Position numbers and translations under genes: made by a program | Notes under the pieces: generated by a model | The model's input: only the letters and a program-made list of their open reading frames with translations | The model's database searches: none | Told to the model about the DNA's origin: nothing | IMG/VR virus record: IMGVR_UViG_3300017963_000662 | Location: 1 to 27,634 of that record | DNA: 27,634 nucleotides | Reading direction: 5' to 3' (one strand) | DNA from: a virus | Shown: positions 2,705-17,632 of the stretch, in pieces | Position numbering within the stretch: position 1 is the stretch's first letter | Layout: each line of letters starts with the position of its first letter

Positions 2705-2928
2705 ACGCCAGCCTCATAGTCTGCTACTTTTGCAGCTACTATAGTCTTTAGTGGAATACGCAAAGCCTTACATAAAGGCCGCAACTTTTGAGCTTTAAGA
2801 CCTGTTTGACCGCGCTCAACCTTTCCGACAAATCCAACACTCGTACCGAGTGCCTGTGCTAATGCTGATTGAGAGATCTTCTTCTTCTCTCTAGCCGATC
2901 GAACTACTGCTGCTAACTCTGCTGCCAT
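2680..2928 (-). CDS. XRE-family helix-turn-helix regulator
   Basis: This is an 82-residue DNA-binding protein, essentially one lambda-repressor-like helix-turn-helix. The N-terminal helix is followed by SQSALAQALGTSVGFVGKVERG, written here only as its key parts: SQSALAQ for helix 2 and VGFVGKVE for the recognition helix. It lacks a dimerisation or cleavage domain, so it is a small Cro-like or repressor-like factor. ATG at 2928 is preferred over the ATG at 2934 because a TAGGAG ribosome-binding site sits six bases before it but directly abuts the earlier ATG. Genes on both sides overlap it, so all three are probably co-translated. Its operator is unknown; the inverted repeat at 6511-6531 is one candidate. 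Confidence 0.85.
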   Translation of the reverse strand: MAAELAAVVRSAREKKKISQSALAQALGTSVGFVGKVERGQTGLKAQKLRPLCKALRIPLKTIVAAKVADYEAGVWATVKGK

Positions 2929-3076
2929 TTGCATCTCCTATTTTTAATGCGTGATCCGCATCATCTTTTAATATCTGTTTATCATCAAGCCTCTTTTTTA
3001 GGTTTTTTATAACCTCAGCTTGCTGTCTTAATATATTCCTTAAGTATTCTATTTCAAGATCTCTTGAGTCCATCAT
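2891..3076 (-). CDS. Small coiled-coil protein, unknown function
   Basis: This 61-residue reading frame starts at tandem ATGs with an AAGGA ribosome-binding site eight bases upstream of the first. Residues 5-45 form a charged amphipathic helix with a leucine/isoleucine heptad pattern (LEIEYLRNIL, then VIKNLKKRL). The tail is serine-rich and lies over the start of the XRE gene (38-base overlap). The ribosome-binding site lies immediately after the T-run of a leftward terminator. I do not recognise the family. The clear Shine-Dalgarno sequence and helical pattern make it probably real. Confidence 0.55.
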   Translation of the reverse strand: MMDSRDLEIEYLRNILRQQAEVIKNLKKRLDDKQILKDDADHALKIGDANGSRVSSSSSIG

Positions 3077-3085
3077 CTAGTCCTT

Positions 3086-3109
3086 AAAAAAAGGGGAGAC
3101 TTGCTCCCC
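3086..3109 (-). terminator. Intrinsic terminator, leftward
   Basis: Read on the minus strand: GGGGAG, loop CAAGT, CTCCCC, then seven T. The six-base GC-rich stem with an adjacent U-run is a textbook rho-independent terminator. It lies between the 167-residue gene (ending at 3137) and the coiled-coil/XRE/amidase genes, and no convincing promoter lies between it and those genes. Confidence 0.88.
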
Positions 3110-3136
3110 CCTAAACAATCTAAGGAGTAGCAAGAA

Positions 3137-3640
3137 TTAAGCCCCAGGGTTTATGCCCCTTCTGCCTGCACCAACACCCTGACGAAGCGGTGATGATTCA
3201 GGTAGATCAAGTGGCAAAGCTCTTGAAATGTAATCATCCAAGAATCGCTGCATTTTATCGAGCAAAGAATCCACTCGAGTCTCATCTGGCCCGATAAGAC
3301 GTGCTGCAAGTCTGGCTGACTGAGAGCTTAATAATTCAATCTCTAATAAATCCCATAGCTGCATGATATCCACTACAGCTTCATTCTCAGGCATAGCTAA
3401 AGCTTCGCCTTCACCTAGTTCAATCACTCGACCACCATGTGATTCTGGCAAATCCAAAATCGGTTGCGATTGAAACCATTGTTTGTATGCTCTTAATCCA
3501 TCAAGATACGAGCGCAATCTTTGCGCATCAGCTTCACTAACTGCTGAAGCGTTGCCTGATTGAGACTTTGCCCACTCATACTTAAATCGTCGCGAACGGC
3601 GTATGAATCCGGCAATATCATGATTCTGTACAGTTGACAT
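3137..3640 (-). CDS. Conserved-looking phage protein, unknown function
   Basis: This 167-residue soluble, mostly helical acidic protein has an excellent GGGGGA ribosome-binding site before the ATG. An N-terminal basic stretch (IRRSRRFKYEW) is followed by helices rich in Leu, Glu and Gln and by a short glycine/arginine-rich tail. There is no signal peptide, membrane segment or recognisable catalytic motif. It is the last gene before the leftward terminator and is separated by 61 bases from the gene upstream. I do not recognise the family. Confidence 0.7.
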   Translation of the reverse strand: MSTVQNHDIAGFIRRSRRFKYEWAKSQSGNASAVSEADAQRLRSYLDGLRAYKQWFQSQPILDLPESHGGRVIELGEGEALAMPENEAVVDIMQLWDLLEIELLSSQSARLAARLIGPDETRVDSLLDKMQRFLDDYISRALPLDLPESSPLRQGVGAGRRGINPGA

Positions 3641-5019: not shown

Positions 5020-5111
5020 TTATTTCTCCATTCAGGTGGGTCACGCAGGTCAATTAAAACCTGCGAAAACGTTAAAACGATTAAAAATACTAATATCAAA
5101 AATACTATCAA
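5016..5111 (-). CDS. 31-residue single-pass membrane peptide ending DLRDPPEW-
   Basis: This frame exactly fills the gap between two leftward genes. A TTG start overlaps the upstream TGA by two bases (5108-5110), and its TGA overlaps the ATG of the next gene. It encodes about 20 hydrophobic residues (MIVFLILVFL start, then IVLTF) followed by a polar tail containing DLRDPPEW. The tight fit at both ends, the membrane segment and a non-random polar tail argue for a real gene despite the TTG start and modest AGAAGAA ribosome-binding site. Position among envelope and lysis-type genes suggests a holin, antiholin or lysis-regulator role, but that is a guess. Confidence 0.55.
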   Translation of the reverse strand: MIVFLILVFLIVLTFSQVLIDLRDPPEWRNK

Positions 5112-5581
5112 AACGGCATTTCTTCTGACAGATCAACCTCAGGCGCTGGTGCATGGTTAGGTAAACCAGAATCGGTCACTGAGCCTTGAAACTTGCTGTT
5201 CACATAAGCTAAGTTCTTGATCGTCCCGTCTTGTTTTTCTTTTTGTTTCACATAAACATTAAAAAGGTTTCCACGTAGTGAATCCCATTTATCCACAAGT
5301 TGCTCAACACCATCAACGTCAGTATCAAGGCCAACATCAGACATAGTTTTTTTAAGATAACCCAAAGATCGTGCTGCATAATCACCACTCAAGTACCATG
5401 TTTGCCAAAGCTTACGTTTTGCATGCTCGCCAGTTGCTACAACTAATTCAAGCTGAAAGCTGTCACCAAATCTTCCTGCTAAATCTAAAGTCATGTTATC
5501 AAGCCGACAGATGTAATCGCCCTCAGGTATTGCCACCCAACCTGTTGTCTCTACTTCTTCTGCGTTGTCAAATAGTCCCAT
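5108..5581 (-). CDS. SSB-like / DUF669-type protein with acidic C-terminal tip
   Basis: This 157-residue protein starts MGLFDNAEEV and has a beta-rich core with IPEGDYICRLD and QLELVVATG, in the style of the DUF669 family found beside phage recombinases. The last residues are DLSEEMPF, closely resembling the acidic tip that bacterial SSB proteins use to recruit partners. The AGGAG ribosome-binding site lies ten bases before the ATG. It is directly downstream (2 bases) of the Sak4-like recombinase gene. Single-strand DNA binding in partnership with that recombinase is the likely role, inferred from gene order and the tip motif. Confidence 0.75.
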   Translation of the reverse strand: MGLFDNAEEVETTGWVAIPEGDYICRLDNMTLDLAGRFGDSFQLELVVATGEHAKRKLWQTWYLSGDYAARSLGYLKKTMSDVGLDTDVDGVEQLVDKWDSLRGNLFNVYVKQKEKQDGTIKNLAYVNSKFQGSVTDSGLPNHAPAPEVDLSEEMPF

Positions 5582-5583
5582 GG

Positions 5584-6267
5584 TTATTTGTCTCCTGTTA
5601 ATTGTTTTAGTAATTGTTTGTAGTCTAAATCCATTATTTCGGGGAGTTTTCCTGATCGGTCACCGGCGTTAAGGTTTGGGTTTCCTTTTGTTGCAAACTT
5701 TCTATTCCCTTCATTGTCGATATAACAGTAGAAGATAAAGTCGCAAAGACCTGAGATAACTTTTCTCGCTGATCCAGATAACGTTGTGTCGGTATAAGAC
5801 CGTTTGATCGATTTCTCTTCAAGGTCTCTAGTTTCTGCATGAGAGATAAATATAATTCCATATCCTGCTTGAGTGAGCGCCGATACGACTCCCATAAATT
5901 CGTTTTTAACAAGGCCATACCCCTTTCCGAAACTAAGATCAGACATATGTGTTATGCCTTCCTTCTTACAAATATAAGTCTCTGCCATCTTGTAAGCGTT
6001 GTCAGCAGTATCAAAAACAATTGTTTTGAATTGCTTCTTATCTCTTTGCTGAAGCAACTGCTTAGCTATTTCTCTCACATCACTCCATCCCTGCGGATCA
6101 AGCTTATAGATCTCTTGAAACTTATGCCCAGGCTCTGTCGCAATAAATAATGCTTTATCAAAGTTTGAGCAAAAGGTTGTTTTCCCAGACTTTGGTGCGC
6201 CGTAGATAAGAAACGTGTACTCATGTATGTCTGATGTCGGTTTTGATTTAGTCGATGGTAGTTTCAT
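5584..6267 (-). CDS. Sak4-like RecA-fold recombinase (AAA_24 ATPase)
   Basis: This 227-residue P-loop ATPase shows Walker A GAPKSGKT at residues 23-30 and Walker B IVFDTAD with D86. A sensor-like strand GIIFISHAE follows, then a basic loop. The compact single domain is typical of Sak4, the minimal RecA/Rad51-like phage single-strand annealing protein, which acts on ssDNA with an SSB partner; such a gene follows immediately. AAGGGA precedes the ATG by five bases. The gene overlaps the upstream small gene by 20 bases. Annotators often call such genes simply AAA family ATPase or nucleotide-binding protein. Confidence 0.85.
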   Translation of the reverse strand: MKLPSTKSKPTSDIHEYTFLIYGAPKSGKTTFCSNFDKALFIATEPGHKFQEIYKLDPQGWSDVREIAKQLLQQRDKKQFKTIVFDTADNAYKMAETYICKKEGITHMSDLSFGKGYGLVKNEFMGVVSALTQAGYGIIFISHAETRDLEEKSIKRSYTDTTLSGSARKVISGLCDFIFYCYIDNEGNRKFATKGNPNLNAGDRSGKLPEIMDLDYKQLLKQLTGDK

Positions 6268-6484
6268 TTGCGTCCCTTACGTTATCGCCTGTAATGATGC
6301 GGCGTAGACTATCGCGTTTCATGTCATTTATTCTACTTATAAGCCTAGTGTGCTTTGATGCCAATACTCTTAGTTCAACAATTATGTCCTTCTCCTGAAC
6401 TTTAGTCTCATCAAGATAAGAAGCCAAGGTGCGAACCTGCTCCCGCATCTCTAATAACTCCGTTATAAGTCTAGCTGTATTCAT
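6248..6484 (-). CDS. Small helical protein, first gene of the leftward unit
   Basis: This 78-residue protein is almost wholly amphipathic helix with regular leucine/isoleucine spacing (LITELLEMREQVRTL and following), ending in a polar tail. The AAGGGCG ribosome-binding site lies about eight bases before the ATG. It is the first gene after the strong leftward promoter and overlaps the Sak4-like gene by 20 bases, so the two are probably co-translated. It resembles short coiled-coil accessory proteins, but I do not recognise a family. Confidence 0.68.
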   Translation of the reverse strand: MNTARLITELLEMREQVRTLASYLDETKVQEKDIIVELRVLASKHTRLISRINDMKRDSLRRIITGDNVRDANETTID

Positions 6485-6510
6485 AAACTGACGCCCTTAG
6501 TAATATTTTG

Positions 6511-6531
6511 TGTACTATACTTTTTTGTACA
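6511..6531. promoter_or_regulatory. Possible repressor operator over the leftward promoter
   Basis: TGTAC (6511-6515) and GTACA (6527-6531) form a short inverted repeat whose centre covers the -10 box of the leftward promoter. A dimeric helix-turn-helix protein bound here would block polymerase. The arms are only five bases, so chance is not excluded. Confidence 0.35.
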
Positions 6532-6542
6532 GGTCTAGTCAA
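6514..6542 (-). promoter_or_regulatory. Sigma70-type leftward promoter
   Basis: On the minus strand TTGACT (6542-6537) and TATAGT (6519-6514) are separated by exactly 17 bases. Each matches the consensus at five of six positions. It lies about 30-60 bases upstream of the first leftward gene and is the best promoter in the window. Confidence 0.82.
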
Positions 6543-6544
6543 AT

Positions 6545-6599
6545 AAAAAACCAGCCAGTAGAAAGAGTAGATGGGCATCAGTGTCTAGATACTGGCTGG
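6545..6599 (-). terminator. Long-loop hairpin with T-run (leftward terminator/attenuator)
   Basis: CCAGCCAGTA (6551-6560) pairs perfectly with TACTGGCTGG (6590-6599), ten base pairs with a 29-base loop. Read leftward, the stem is followed immediately by six T (6550-6545). It ends just where the -35 box of the leftward promoter begins, so it would insulate that promoter or end a short transcript arising upstream. Confidence 0.65.
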
Positions 6600-6622
6600 C
6601 TCAAAAGAAGTGCTTATTTGTC
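6545..6622 (-). ncRNA. Possible small leftward RNA (about 75 nt)
   Basis: A perfect TATAAT lies on the minus strand at 6634-6629. A transcript starting about seven bases downstream would run through the ten-base-pair hairpin and end at its T-run, giving an RNA of about 75 nt with no good open frame. The -35 region is poor, so this is a hypothesis only. Confidence 0.28.
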
Positions 6623-6717
6623 TATTGCATTATAGAGGTCTGTCTATTATGCTCATTGAACCCGTTTAAGTATACATATACATCTTAGTACGCATTTTGT
6701 CTAACATAATATAGAGG
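6582..6717 (+). repeat. TGTCTA motifs upstream of the helicase gene
   Basis: TGTCTA occurs at 6582-6587, 6619-6624, 6641-6646 and 6698-6703. Two of these belong to a longer imperfect repeat of the form TTGTCTA, eight variable bases, then a TATAGAGG-type end (6618-6638 and 6697-6717; 16 of 21 positions match). The last copy also supplies the ribosome-binding site of the helicase gene. The region carries the divergent control signals and no gene. Confidence 0.5.
6625..6653 (+). promoter_or_regulatory. Weak candidate rightward promoter
   Basis: TTGCAT (6625-6630) and TATGCT (6648-6653) are spaced by 17 bases. Matches to consensus are only three and four of six. A second weak option starts at TTGAAC (6656-6661). 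Some rightward promoter must lie here to drive the helicase and early genes, but the sequence does not single one out. Confidence 0.3.
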
Positions 6718-6722
6718 GGTTT

Positions 6723-8219
6723 ATGGGCGTGAATGAAGGATTATCGGTTGGGGAGGCAATGGCCCAGATCGACTGGGATCCGCTAGACCTGAATTTCAGA
6801 CAGCAACTGATTGAAAAAATTACAAAAGGCACTGACGTTTCACGCCTGGATCTCGTCAATGACCTTAAAATGCAGCAAAATGACCTGTTTTATTCAAAAC
6901 ACCCCACTTATTTGAACCATTTCTACAACGCCACCGATGGTGGTAAGTTCTATCCTGACTACCTAGGTCTGGCTCAGTACTTTAAAGATGAGCTGCACTT
7001 TATATGTGATGACTCTTATCAATATATATATAACGGCACCCATTTCGTAGATATATCTAACAAAATGTTACGACAAAAAGTCATGGAGCTCACCTCAGAT
7101 CACCTGCGACCCGCACACCTTGAGCAGTTCATTAAATTCATAACAGCTCATTGCGCACTACCTATTGAAGACTTTAAAACTCGTGAAGGACTACTCAACC
7201 TTAAAAACGGTGTGCTTGATATAAAAAGTGGTGTCATGTACACGCACTCACCAACCTATCGATTCAGATACGTACTGGATCATGAGTACAACAAATCAGC
7301 TCAGTGTCCTCAGTTTTTACGCTTCCTAAATTATATATTTCAAGACAGCCCAGGACTTATCAACTTAGTTGGTGAAATACTAGGGTACACAATCATCGGC
7401 GGAGAGCCTACAAAACACCGTGCCTTTATGTTCTATGGCTCTGGCCGAAATGGCAAATCCACCCTACTGGACACCACACGTGAACTACTAGGAAAGAAAA
7501 ACGTATCGTCTGTCTCTATGAAACTTATCGACAAACCCTTTAGTGCTGTAAGACTTAGCGGAATGCTTGCAAACATTGTTGAAGAATCACCTCACCAAAT
7601 CGATGCTGAAGCTTTTAAAAATATCGTCGGTGGTGGTACTATCAGTGCTGCTTTTAAAGGCAGAGATGAGTTCGACCTTAAGGTCAACTGTCGTATGTTC
7701 TTTGCCTGTAACGAATTCCCACACTTTAAAGACGCCACTAAAGGCAATAGAGATAGGTTAGTCATTGTGCCATTTAACAAATACATACCAGACAGTGAGC
7801 GAGACACAGATATACTCGTTAAACTTCGATCAGAACTCTCAGGCATCTTAAACTTTGCACTTGATGGATACCGTAGGCTTAAAAAAAATGGGGATAAGTT
7901 TACTGTGGTGCGTGAAGTTGAAGAAGCTCATAAAGAGTTCATAGTCTCAACCGATAACGTGGCCGCGTGGGCTGATGAAAATATAGAAAAAGAAGAACAT
8001 AGTTTCGCTGTGGTTGATCTTATGTATCAAGATTATAAGAAATTCTGTGAAGACAACGGTAACCATTGCACCAATAAAGATACGTTCTCTAAGAGATTGT
8101 GCGTGATGTTAGACCAGAAAACCTCTAGAAAATGGACAGGACAACGTAGAATTAGGGTGCATGAAGGGGTTAAATGCACTGGGCCAATCTATAAATTCAA
8201 CCAAAATTGGACAGGCTAA
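6723..8219 (+). CDS. SF3 replicative helicase, D5/P4-alpha type
   Basis: This 498-residue protein has a D5_N-like region (about 85-215, with LLNLKNGVLDI) followed by an SF3 helicase core. Walker A is GSGRNGKS at 239-246, the Walker B-like acidic pair is E287-E288 in NIVEES, motif C is FFACNE with N330, and a candidate arginine finger lies in KGNRDRL (R343/R345). A C-terminal winged-helix-like region (about 425-480) could bind the origin. It lacks the TOPRIM or AEP primase domain of full primase-helicases, so it is probably a helicase/initiator only. The GAGGGG ribosome-binding site before the ATG is strong. The candidate origin begins inside its 3' end. Confidence 0.9.
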   Translation: MGVNEGLSVGEAMAQIDWDPLDLNFRQQLIEKITKGTDVSRLDLVNDLKMQQNDLFYSKHPTYLNHFYNATDGGKFYPDYLGLAQYFKDELHFICDDSYQYIYNGTHFVDISNKMLRQKVMELTSDHLRPAHLEQFIKFITAHCALPIEDFKTREGLLNLKNGVLDIKSGVMYTHSPTYRFRYVLDHEYNKSAQCPQFLRFLNYIFQDSPGLINLVGEILGYTIIGGEPTKHRAFMFYGSGRNGKSTLLDTTRELLGKKNVSSVSMKLIDKPFSAVRLSGMLANIVEESPHQIDAEAFKNIVGGGTISAAFKGRDEFDLKVNCRMFFACNEFPHFKDATKGNRDRLVIVPFNKYIPDSERDTDILVKLRSELSGILNFALDGYRRLKKNGDKFTVVREVEEAHKEFIVSTDNVAAWADENIEKEEHSFAVVDLMYQDYKKFCEDNGNHCTNKDTFSKRLCVMLDQKTSRKWTGQRRIRVHEGVKCTGPIYKFNQNWTG

Positions 8220-8389
8220 GGTTTTTTGGACAGTACCTGTCCAGTAGCTTGTCCATAGTTAAGTTATTGAATTGTTTTATTTATTTTAATTTTGGACAGC
8301 TGGGACAGGTTTTTTTAAAAAAATGGAATTATAAAAAAAGAAAATAAAATAAGAGATAAAAGTACATTTACCTGTCCACTACCTGTCCA
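8133..8389. other. Candidate replication origin: iterons around an AT-rich core
   Basis: Nine copies of TGGACAGG or its reverse complement (allowing one mismatch or a lost end base) occur at 8133, 8208, 8227, 8236 (reverse), 8249 (reverse), 8293, 8302, 8371 (reverse) and 8382 (reverse). The 8227-8243 pair is a perfect palindrome TGGACAG-TAC-CTGTCCA, and the last two copies are spaced 11 bases, one helical turn. Between them, about 8256-8370 is extremely AT-rich, including T7A7 at 8310-8323. Iterons, an AT-rich unwinding element and an adjacent initiator helicase gene are the hallmarks of an SF3-type origin. The 8220-8420 gap holds no gene. Confidence 0.72.
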
Positions 8390-8420
8390 AGAGCAGGTGC
8401 GTCAAAAAGAAAGGTTAGAC

Positions 8421-8657
8421 ATGGATCTACCAGAAGGAAACAGGCCATACGAGTGGGTGAAGGTTCAGTTAATGGGTCAGGCTGATAATCATTGCGAGCA
8501 GCGCTACTCTCAGTTCGGTCATCGCATTGAGTTCTTAGCTGGAGTACGCTGGATGCTCGACTACATGGACCGTCACGAGCTTTTAGGTGTGTTAAGTGAG
8601 ACTTTAACAGACCCAAACCCTAACGCATCGCTAACTCAAAATAAGGAGCTCAAATGA
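8421..8657 (+). CDS. Early protein, unknown function
   Basis: This 78-residue acidic protein contains FGHRIEFLAGVRWMLDYMDRH in its middle, an amphipathic helical segment. ATG at 8421 is chosen because AAGG lies six bases upstream; a GTG at 8397 lacks such a site and overlaps the iteron region. It opens the block of small early genes directly downstream of the candidate origin and overlaps the next gene by ATGA. I do not recognise the family. Confidence 0.6.
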   Translation: MDLPEGNRPYEWVKVQLMGQADNHCEQRYSQFGHRIEFLAGVRWMLDYMDRHELLGVLSETLTDPNPNASLTQNKELK

Positions 8658-8881
8658 TAAGTGAGATATTAGATCAATTCCTTCACACCATCTGGGGCGC
8701 ACTACTAGCATCACTGGCTGCTTACCACGGCGCATCACCAATAGTGTGTTGTTTGTTTTCGATCGTGTGTATTTTACCAAGGGAGTTAGTAGATCAGTGG
8801 CCGATTGAGCGTCCTATGGATACTGTGATTGATCTGGGTTTCTTTGGATTGGGTGGATTGATTATTGCATTGATTCTCTGA
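8654..8881 (+). CDS. Small two-pass membrane protein
   Basis: This 75-residue protein has two hydrophobic segments (about residues 8-42 and 58-75) joined by a polar loop with PRELVDQWPIERPMD. The ATG overlaps the previous stop (ATGA). Size and topology fit class II holins, but also many uncharacterised phage membrane proteins. It lies in the early region, far from the amidase, which weakens a holin call. Confidence 0.62.
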   Translation: MISEILDQFLHTIWGALLASLAAYHGASPIVCCLFSIVCILPRELVDQWPIERPMDTVIDLGFFGLGGLIIALIL

Positions 8882-14354: not shown

Positions 14355-15545
14355 GTGCAGTATCACTGTAAGTACGATGAATTAAGGGATCCAGACTTAT
14401 TAACACCACATCCACGCAATGCTAATAAGCATCCTGATCGGCAGATTGAGTTGTTAGCTAAGATTATTGATCATACTGGGTTTAGGCATCCTGTGGTGGT
14501 TAGTAAGACCAGTGGATATATAGTTGCAGGTCACGGGAGAGTGCAAGCTGCTAAAAGGTTACGCATTGAGGTGCCTGTACAAGAGCAGCACTTTGCTAAC
14601 GAGGCTGAAGAGTTTGAGTTTCTAATAGCTGATAACAAAATATCAGAGTTAGCAGAGCACGATGATAACGTGATGATAGAGGGTATTAAGGAATTAGAGA
14701 TTGAAGACTTTGAGCTATTAGGTTTAGAGGATTTTGATTTGCCTGTAGAGCCAGAAGAAGCACAGTGTGATGAAGACGAGGTACCGGAGAATGTTGATAC
14801 TAGATGTAAACTGGGCGACACTTGGATACTTGGTTCACATCGTCTGCATTGTGGTGATGCTACTGATGTACTACAGGTTGAGAAATTAATGGATGGTGAT
14901 AAAGCTGACATAACTTTTACTAGTCCACCTTATAATGCGGGGAAAAATATTAGAGGTCACTTTTATGAGAATGACACCGACGACAAGTCAGAAAATGAAT
15001 ATGTAGACTTTTTGTTGTCTTCGTCTGAGTTGTGCTTGCATAATTCAACTTTTGTTTTTTGGAATGTTCAGTTATTGGAAGGGAACAAATATTCATTAAC
15101 TGATTTTCAATTCAAGAGACGTGACCAGATAAAAGACATTTTGATTTGGAACAAAAAGCAATACCCTCCACATATAAACAAAGGAACTTTTGGGTGTAAG
15201 TGGGAATATGTTTTTGTATTATGCAATGACTCTAAATCAAGGTCGTTTCCTTGTCGTTGGCAGGGCAAATTCCCAAATGTGATAGAAACTGAAAATGCGT
15301 CGGGCAATGAATATGCAAAAACTCACAAAGCTACATTTCCGGTTTCGTTTCCATCGTGGATCCTTGAAAAAATGGATTTTGCAAAAACAGTTTATGACTG
15401 TTTTGGGGGTTCTGGTACCACCATGATCGCCGCCGAGAAGCTAGGCCGCAAATGCTACATGATGGAACTAGACCCACATTACTGCGATGTGATATTATCT
15501 AGGTGGGAGAAATACACAGGCAAAGAGGCAAAGCTTGAAGCTTGA
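14355..15545 (+). CDS. ParB-like nuclease domain fused to beta-class DNA methyltransferase
   Basis: This 396-residue two-domain protein has residues 1-100 as a ParB/Spo0J-like domain, with NANKHPDRQ, PVVVS and the GHGR motif at 59-62. After an acidic linker (about 110-148), an amino-methyltransferase follows: motif IV TSPPYN at 189-194 and, C-terminally, the SAM-binding FGGSGT at 350-355. The order IV then I defines the beta class, which makes N6-methyladenine or N4-methylcytosine; the SPP form leans to N4-cytosine. The target-recognition part lies in about 205-335. The start is GTG with AAGGGGG seven bases upstream. The gene sits directly before terminase and could protect phage DNA from host restriction. 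Confidence 0.88.
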   Translation: MQYHCKYDELRDPDLLTPHPRNANKHPDRQIELLAKIIDHTGFRHPVVVSKTSGYIVAGHGRVQAAKRLRIEVPVQEQHFANEAEEFEFLIADNKISELAEHDDNVMIEGIKELEIEDFELLGLEDFDLPVEPEEAQCDEDEVPENVDTRCKLGDTWILGSHRLHCGDATDVLQVEKLMDGDKADITFTSPPYNAGKNIRGHFYENDTDDKSENEYVDFLLSSSELCLHNSTFVFWNVQLLEGNKYSLTDFQFKRRDQIKDILIWNKKQYPPHINKGTFGCKWEYVFVLCNDSKSRSFPCRWQGKFPNVIETENASGNEYAKTHKATFPVSFPSWILEKMDFAKTVYDCFGGSGTTMIAAEKLGRKCYMMELDPHYCDVILSRWEKYTGKEAKLEA

Positions 15546-17245: not shown

Positions 17246-17632
17246 ATGATTGATTTTGAAGTGGATAAAAAAACAGGGTGTTGGAATTGGTTGGGCCATA
17301 TTAATCCAAATGGATATGCTACTTTTGGTAGGCATAAGTATGCTCATAGAGTTTTTTATAAATCAAACAAGGGTGCTGTGCCTGACGGATATTGTGTTGA
17401 TCACATTTGTTTCAATAGAAAATGTGTAAACCCAAATCATTTAGAGGCTGTTACTAATAAAGAAAATTGTAGAAGGGGTAAAAACCCTAAAATAAATAAA
17501 CAACATGCCGAAGAGATTAAGTTTTTATACAAAAAATTTAAACACATAAGGCAAATAGACTTAGCGAATGCTTATGGAATAAGCCGATCTCAAGTTTCAC
17601 ATATTGTAACTAATCGGAAGTGGGTAGGTTAA
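17246..17632 (+). CDS. HNH homing-type endonuclease
   Basis: This 128-residue protein has the HNH_3 core: GCWNW and GYATF strands, AHRVFY, then D52-H53-I-C55, C60-V-N-P-N-H65-L, and NKENCRRG. A C-terminal helix-turn-helix (about 85-128, with QIDLANAYGISRSQVSHI) would give site specificity. It is a free-standing gene wedged between terminase large subunit and portal, and is visibly more AT-rich than its neighbours. Its Shine-Dalgarno sequence (AAGGTGA) overlaps the terL stop. It is probably a mobile gene that cuts related phage genomes lacking it. Confidence 0.9.
   Translation: MIDFEVDKKTGCWNWLGHINPNGYATFGRHKYAHRVFYKSNKGAVPDGYCVDHICFNRKCVNPNHLEAVTNKENCRRGKNPKINKQHAEEIKFLYKKFKHIRQIDLANAYGISRSQVSHIVTNRKWVG

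Follow-up and report, generated by a model that had tools for sequence, protein, structure and literature searches.

The window, by which we mean the whole stretch of DNA analysed here, is a complete IMG/VR record of 27,634 bases, which may itself be a fragment; all motif counts cover this record alone. Its tailed-phage context is clear, as a terminase large subunit and a major head protein are encoded in it. The gene of interest (6723-8219, plus strand; the open frame starts at 6705) encodes a presumed initiator, an SF3 (D5/DUF5906) AAA+ helicase of 498 amino acid residues, assigned by Pfam and by AlphaFold2/Foldseek. Divergent from it lies a recombination module, in which a Sak4-like AAA_24 ATPase gene (5108-6267, minus strand) adjoins a gene for a putative single-strand DNA binding protein. 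Elsewhere, the window encodes a Cro/CI-like HTH protein (2680-2934), a fusion of a ParB-N-like domain with an N6/N4 DNA methyltransferase (14355-15545; phrog_498), and, between the terminase gene and the next structural gene, an HNH-endonuclease-like ORF (17246-17632), which was judged from its translation alone. The searches found no close relative for the phage as a whole: the searches of viral_contigs with the helicases of the window and of L024 gave no matches, an eight-sequence D5 alignment was too divergent to serve as a query, and the search of phage records at the DNA level gave weak AT-rich matches only.

The Pfam matches of the helicase were D5_N (1.3e-14), DUF5906 (8e-17), and Pox_D5 (2.9e-6), with no other domain. 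Its Walker A sequence is GSGRNGKS, and G241, G244, and K245 are invariant across 24 sequences. No fused primase domain was detected by Pfam in the 498 residues, the PHROGs primase profiles aligned over their helicase part only, and no primase was recognised among the proteins scanned across the possibly incomplete record. The description of the helicase as primase-less in the first-pass annotation thus holds for the protein itself and for the proteins scanned.

In the AlphaFold2 model (mean pLDDT 79.7), the C terminus contains a strand (421-430), two helices (431-444 and 452-463), and a hairpin (467-472/475-485). Residues 421-485 of the model are a winged helix, with DNA binding predicted; its codons (7983-8177, plus strand; wing hairpin, residues 467-485) were delimited from the modelled secondary structure and from RFX profile matches, and they would encode the iteron-reading domain. 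The SaPI5 primase-helicase was the best solved structural match of the model (7ola, Foldseek E 7.6e-23) as well as the best sequence-profile match (E 8.5e-82). Positions 320-385 of the A4 profile, the C-terminal segment, weakly matched the DNA-binding domains of RFX5 and hRFX1 (E 0.005 and 0.06); hRFX1 uses its wing to read DNA. A C-terminal RFX_DNA_binding Pfam match was also seen in a 438-residue D5/DUF5906 helicase of contig L107 (region 5112-8539), where a GGACAGGG array precedes the helicase gene by about 1.8 kb instead of following it.

Iterons and AT-rich core at the end of the helicase gene

With one mismatch allowed, TGGACAGG has 18 sites in the window, nine of which fall in 8133-8389, where 0.08-0.14 would be expected (0.084 from the rate outside the cluster, over 257 bp; Poisson P 6e-16). 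The biggest cluster in 300 Markov-1 genomes consisted of four sites. Higher repeat scores than that of the array were found only in stretches in and around a glycine-rich protein gene, at about 0.8-1.9 kb of the window; this gene (987-1838) contains strong GGT/GGC repeats. GGACA is invariant in all nine sites, and the sequence flanking the 8-mer is variable.

The first site (8133-8140, plus strand) lies within the stretch that encodes W471-T472-G473 of the wing tip; it is an outlier and has no counterpart in the closest relative described below. The left dyad (8208-8255) consists of plus-strand iterons at 8208 and 8227 (the latter TGGACAGT), followed by minus-strand iterons at 8236 and 8248 (the latter TGGACAAG). 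An AT-rich spacer (8256-8292) separates it from the right dyad, of which the first half (8293-8309) carries plus-strand iterons at 8293 (TGGACAGC) and 8302 (GGGACAGG), and the second half (8371-8389) minus-strand iterons at 8371 and 8382 (CCTGTCCA twice). Between the halves lies the AT-rich core (8310-8370), a presumed unwinding element with T7A7 at 8310-8323. The first-pass annotation had described nine sites around a very AT-rich core with T7A7, one palindromic pair, and two iterons that double as W-T-G codons in the 3' end of the helicase gene. All of these were found: the palindromic pair is 8227/8236, and the W-T-G coincidences are at codons 471-473 and 496-498, the latter being the last three residues of the helicase (8208-8215). 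The spacing of "exactly one helical turn" is only approximate, as the spacings within pairs are 9, 11, 12, and 19 bp. A scan for 17-mer palindromes gave chance matches only.

At lengths of 60, 100, and 120 bp alike, the most AT-rich segment of the record falls in 8256-8370, which also contains its third least stable 80-bp segment; the most AT-rich 60 bp begin at 8311. The cumulative GC skew, proposed earlier as a check, has its minimum at 7601, inside the helicase gene. This position is closer to the array than to the strand switch at 6.5-6.7 kb; however, it is about 0.5 kb away from the array, and because skew is confounded by gene direction, we regard it as weak support.

Arrays and motif turnover among related helicases

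We applied a de novo repeat finder to 55 loci with enough downstream sequence. Clustered at 70% identity, these loci form 24 lineages, one of which is that of the window. Among the 23 other D5 lineages, mostly from phages, 13 have the top-scoring repeat cluster of their locus within 400 bp past the helicase stop, against 0.64 lineages expected (P 4e-15); about 10 others had no clear array by this finder. Judged from these sequences, a downstream iteron array is frequent, but not universal, among D5 helicases. The iteron motifs are lineage-specific (CATCCGTC, CTGTCACA, ATAAGACAC, AGGGAGAGT, and others). Motifs defined downstream gave seven matches in gene tails (the last 120 bp; 1,845 bp in total) and four in gene bodies (29,439 bp in total), a 28-fold enrichment (Fisher 7e-7; 7e-5 with the window excluded). 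Sharing of iterons with codons is thus a recurrent property; iterons reach into the 3' end of the helicase gene in several lineages, and this feature, contrary to what had been supposed, is not unusual.

The closest relative of the window helicase (46% identity over residues 4-488) is encoded on a contig of a Bdellovibrionales MAG (L069). It is followed by 11-14 copies of GTCCCAGG, the first one 67 bp past the helicase stop. The left dyads of L069 and the window (8208, 8227/8236, 8248) share the order of two plus-strand and then two minus-strand sites, with identical 19- and 12-bp spacings. The right dyad of L069 has two plus-strand sites, an AT-rich stretch, and two minus-strand sites, and a 60-bp stretch of 95% AT occupies the position matching the core of the window. 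Compared with TGGACAGG, the L069 motif is half-changed; CAGG alone is common to both. L069 also encodes, at 6247-6612, an N-terminal part similar to that of the ParB-N-like/methyltransferase fusion of the window, which suggests that L069 comes from a related phage. Among 369 genomes searched in the phylum of L069, 23 encode related helicases, of which many are about 460-500 residues long. We read 25 of these D5-like loci (L132-L156), and only the gene of L069 itself (= L132) had a clear downstream array. In three more, the region ranked top in its own short stretch, but the scores were low. The array-less helicases may belong to chromosomal or decayed elements. Another relative, on an Alicyclobacillus dauci plasmid with a phage morphogenesis gene close by (L024), is a 459-residue helicase with TTGCGCAA copies straddling the stop; this repeat is near-palindromic and arranged in simple series.

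Pairs of Lacticaseibacillus-type phages bear on the question of which part of the helicase reads the iterons. The helicase cores of L029 and L030 are practically identical, and their last residues and iterons differ (CAGGGAGG and GACGGATG). At the DNA level, this pair keeps 94-100% identity until about -100 relative to the helicase stop and regains 90-100% past about +230; in the trough between, it is about 46-60% over most of the block to about +230, although one 50-column window within reaches 88%. L029/L031 has a similar trough, and that of L042/L028 is wider, starting near -250. Outside the trough, these three pairs are mostly 84-100% identical; within it, most of the wing-codon and array sequence is at about 46-75%. 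Pairs with the same iteron (L030/L063, L027/L028, and L029/L033) have no such trough in this region. The block exchanged between these phages, located at -80 to +240 from the stop in L029/L030, holds the wing codons plus the iteron array. As otherwise near-identical phages differ in this block, sequence comparison makes the C-terminal winged helix the probable reader of the iterons. The exchange could reflect passive linkage of neighbouring sequences rather than selected co-exchange. We also considered, as a tentative and rather doubtful proposal, that wing and array form a single exchangeable specificity cassette, in which the iteron at 8133-8140, by encoding W471-T472-G473 of the wing tip, would be recognised DNA that encodes its own recognising residues. 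If so, a single recombination would change origin specificity and keep helicase and origin matched.

Independently of helicase similarity, we scanned viral contigs for arrays of TGGACAGG, and the outcome agrees with the helicase-based comparison. Such arrays were found about 100 bp or less after initiator genes (about 160 bp in L108). The initiators were of the DUF5906 type in L075 (array at 2915-3194) and in L127/L128 (L127, 1266-1672; assigned by a match to a model built from L075), VapE-like in L085 (5585-5795), L093 (7070-7261), L099 (5838-6041), and L115 (3525-3810), AAA_25 in L097 (3579-3689), and DUF927 in L108 (7342-7435). Many further matches had no helicase and were simply tandem repeats on one strand. 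One scrambled motif, used as a control, gave six matches, all of them same-strand repeats and none beside an initiator. The recurrence of TGGACAGG with VapE, DUF927, and AAA_25 helicases was considered as a signal of shared recognition and set aside: the collection contains very many SF3 phages, so some chance sharing of an 8-mer is expected, and we do not make this claim. In L075, a separate Prim-Pol gene lies upstream of the helicase-only gene, an arrangement that is, by analogy, a possible model for the primase-less helicase of the window.

A candidate replication origin and the rival readings

Since relatives and other lineages show helicase-linked arrays with motif turnover, the array at 8208-8389, perhaps together with the site at 8133, is very probably the replication origin of the phage, recognised by the helicase encoded just upstream. 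The earlier proposal of an iteron origin beside an SF3 helicase is thus well supported by sequence comparison. At such an origin, the D5/DUF5906 helicase would bind the TGGACAGG iterons through its C-terminal winged helix, mainly the wing. The inverted iteron pairs flanking the AT-rich core would then place two hexamers face to face, and the AAA+ motors would melt the core and begin bidirectional unwinding. Synthesis would be primed by a separate primase, either host DnaG or the product of a phage gene outside the record.

A different role, in which the sites are operators bound by a phage repressor or by the helicase and control the genes from 8422 on without any origin function, is highly improbable. 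Inverted arrays of short sites are typical of operators too, and the window does encode the Cro/CI-like HTH protein; autoregulation by an initiator would fit an origin as well. However, a sigma-70-like promoter was not found in 8000-8700, and the divergent intergenic region (6485-6722), the expected target of a repressor, has one one-mismatch site only (6526). Moreover, the arrays follow the 3' end of the helicase gene despite differing downstream genes, and they change with the helicase wing.

The nested inverted repeats might alternatively extrude as a cruciform, the structure rather than the iteron sequence being recognised, as proposed for the origin of pRN1. The array folds better than shuffled sequences as single-stranded DNA (z -2.9), and ORF904 of pRN1, which shares domain types with the window helicase, requires a 100-bp stem-loop just downstream of its gene [PMC4234260]. 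We give this reading only a very slight chance: an 8-mer that recurs in direct as well as inverted orientation, its core unchanged and its flanks variable, fits recognition of sequence, the inverted iterons themselves account for the stem energy, and the near-palindromic repeat of L024 is arranged in simple series. An equally slight chance is left to a partition, packaging, or incompatibility site that lies beside the helicase gene by chance, as iteron arrays act as centromeres too and the ParB-N-like fusion is present, but no ParA and no partition operon could be recognised in the scanned proteins, the arrays of relatives are tied to the initiator helicase, and an AT-rich melting core lies within the array.

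The origin reading provides a precise candidate origin for an uncharacterised phage. In phage D5 helicases more generally, downstream iteron origins appear frequent, and the iteron motif and the C-terminal wing appear to change together. With matched pairs such as L029/L030, it may be possible to decipher the DNA-recognition code of these initiators, and such a code would then permit origin prediction from sequence in many metagenomic phages.

Comparison with known systems

The closest known arrangement is that of the SaPI Rep helicases, of which the C-terminal domain recognises an iteron origin directly downstream of the helicase gene [PMC7581432]. The SaPI5 primase-helicase (7ola, 7om0) resembles the window helicase in its D5/SF3 helicase, its C-terminal DNA-binding domain (predicted in the window), and the multi-iteron array directly downstream; it differs in its fused primase, its iteron, and its location in a satellite island rather than a tailed phage genome. 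Cch2 of SCCmec, a D5-type (D5/Primase_Cterm) helicase, uses residues 400-538 to bind direct repeats that lie downstream of its own gene [PMC7581432]. Like the window helicase, Cch2 has no fused primase; unlike it, Cch2 has only three iterons (AAGTG), and a neighbouring A-family polymerase-based pair, not seen in the window, serves as primase. The features that characterise SaPI Rep and Cch2 were also found here, namely a D5_N + DUF5906 core, a modelled C-terminal winged helix fold, and an array at the stop.

Among tailed phages, the D5 helicases of Lactobacillus phage A2-type and other Lacticaseibacillus phages (L050, L002, L029, and L030) likewise have downstream arrays, which extend from near the helicase stop for about 250 bp, with the first half inverted relative to the second. 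These proteins are longer than the window helicase, with an NrS-1-polymerase-like domain in L050, and their iterons and spacing are different. Experimental work on the origin of phage A2 reportedly exists.

In P4 alpha, the winged helix of an SF3 helicase reads the origin repeats [PMC4234260]; there, the same polypeptide also carries a TOPRIM-type primase, which the window helicase lacks. In pRN1, the origin, a stem-loop, likewise lies downstream of the gene for the primase-SF3-winged-helix protein [PMC4234260], the same place as the candidate origin region of the window relative to its helicase gene; ORF904 differs in its fused prim-pol, and its 100-bp stem-loop has no iterons, against nine in the window. 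The pairing of iterons with an SF3 helicase in a tailed phage, which the first-pass annotation had presented as a novelty, is common in tailed phages and has been published for SaPI Rep and Cch2 [PMC7581432]. The downstream-iteron arrangement is thus already known in phages and mobile elements; what is new here is a phage with a different iteron sequence.
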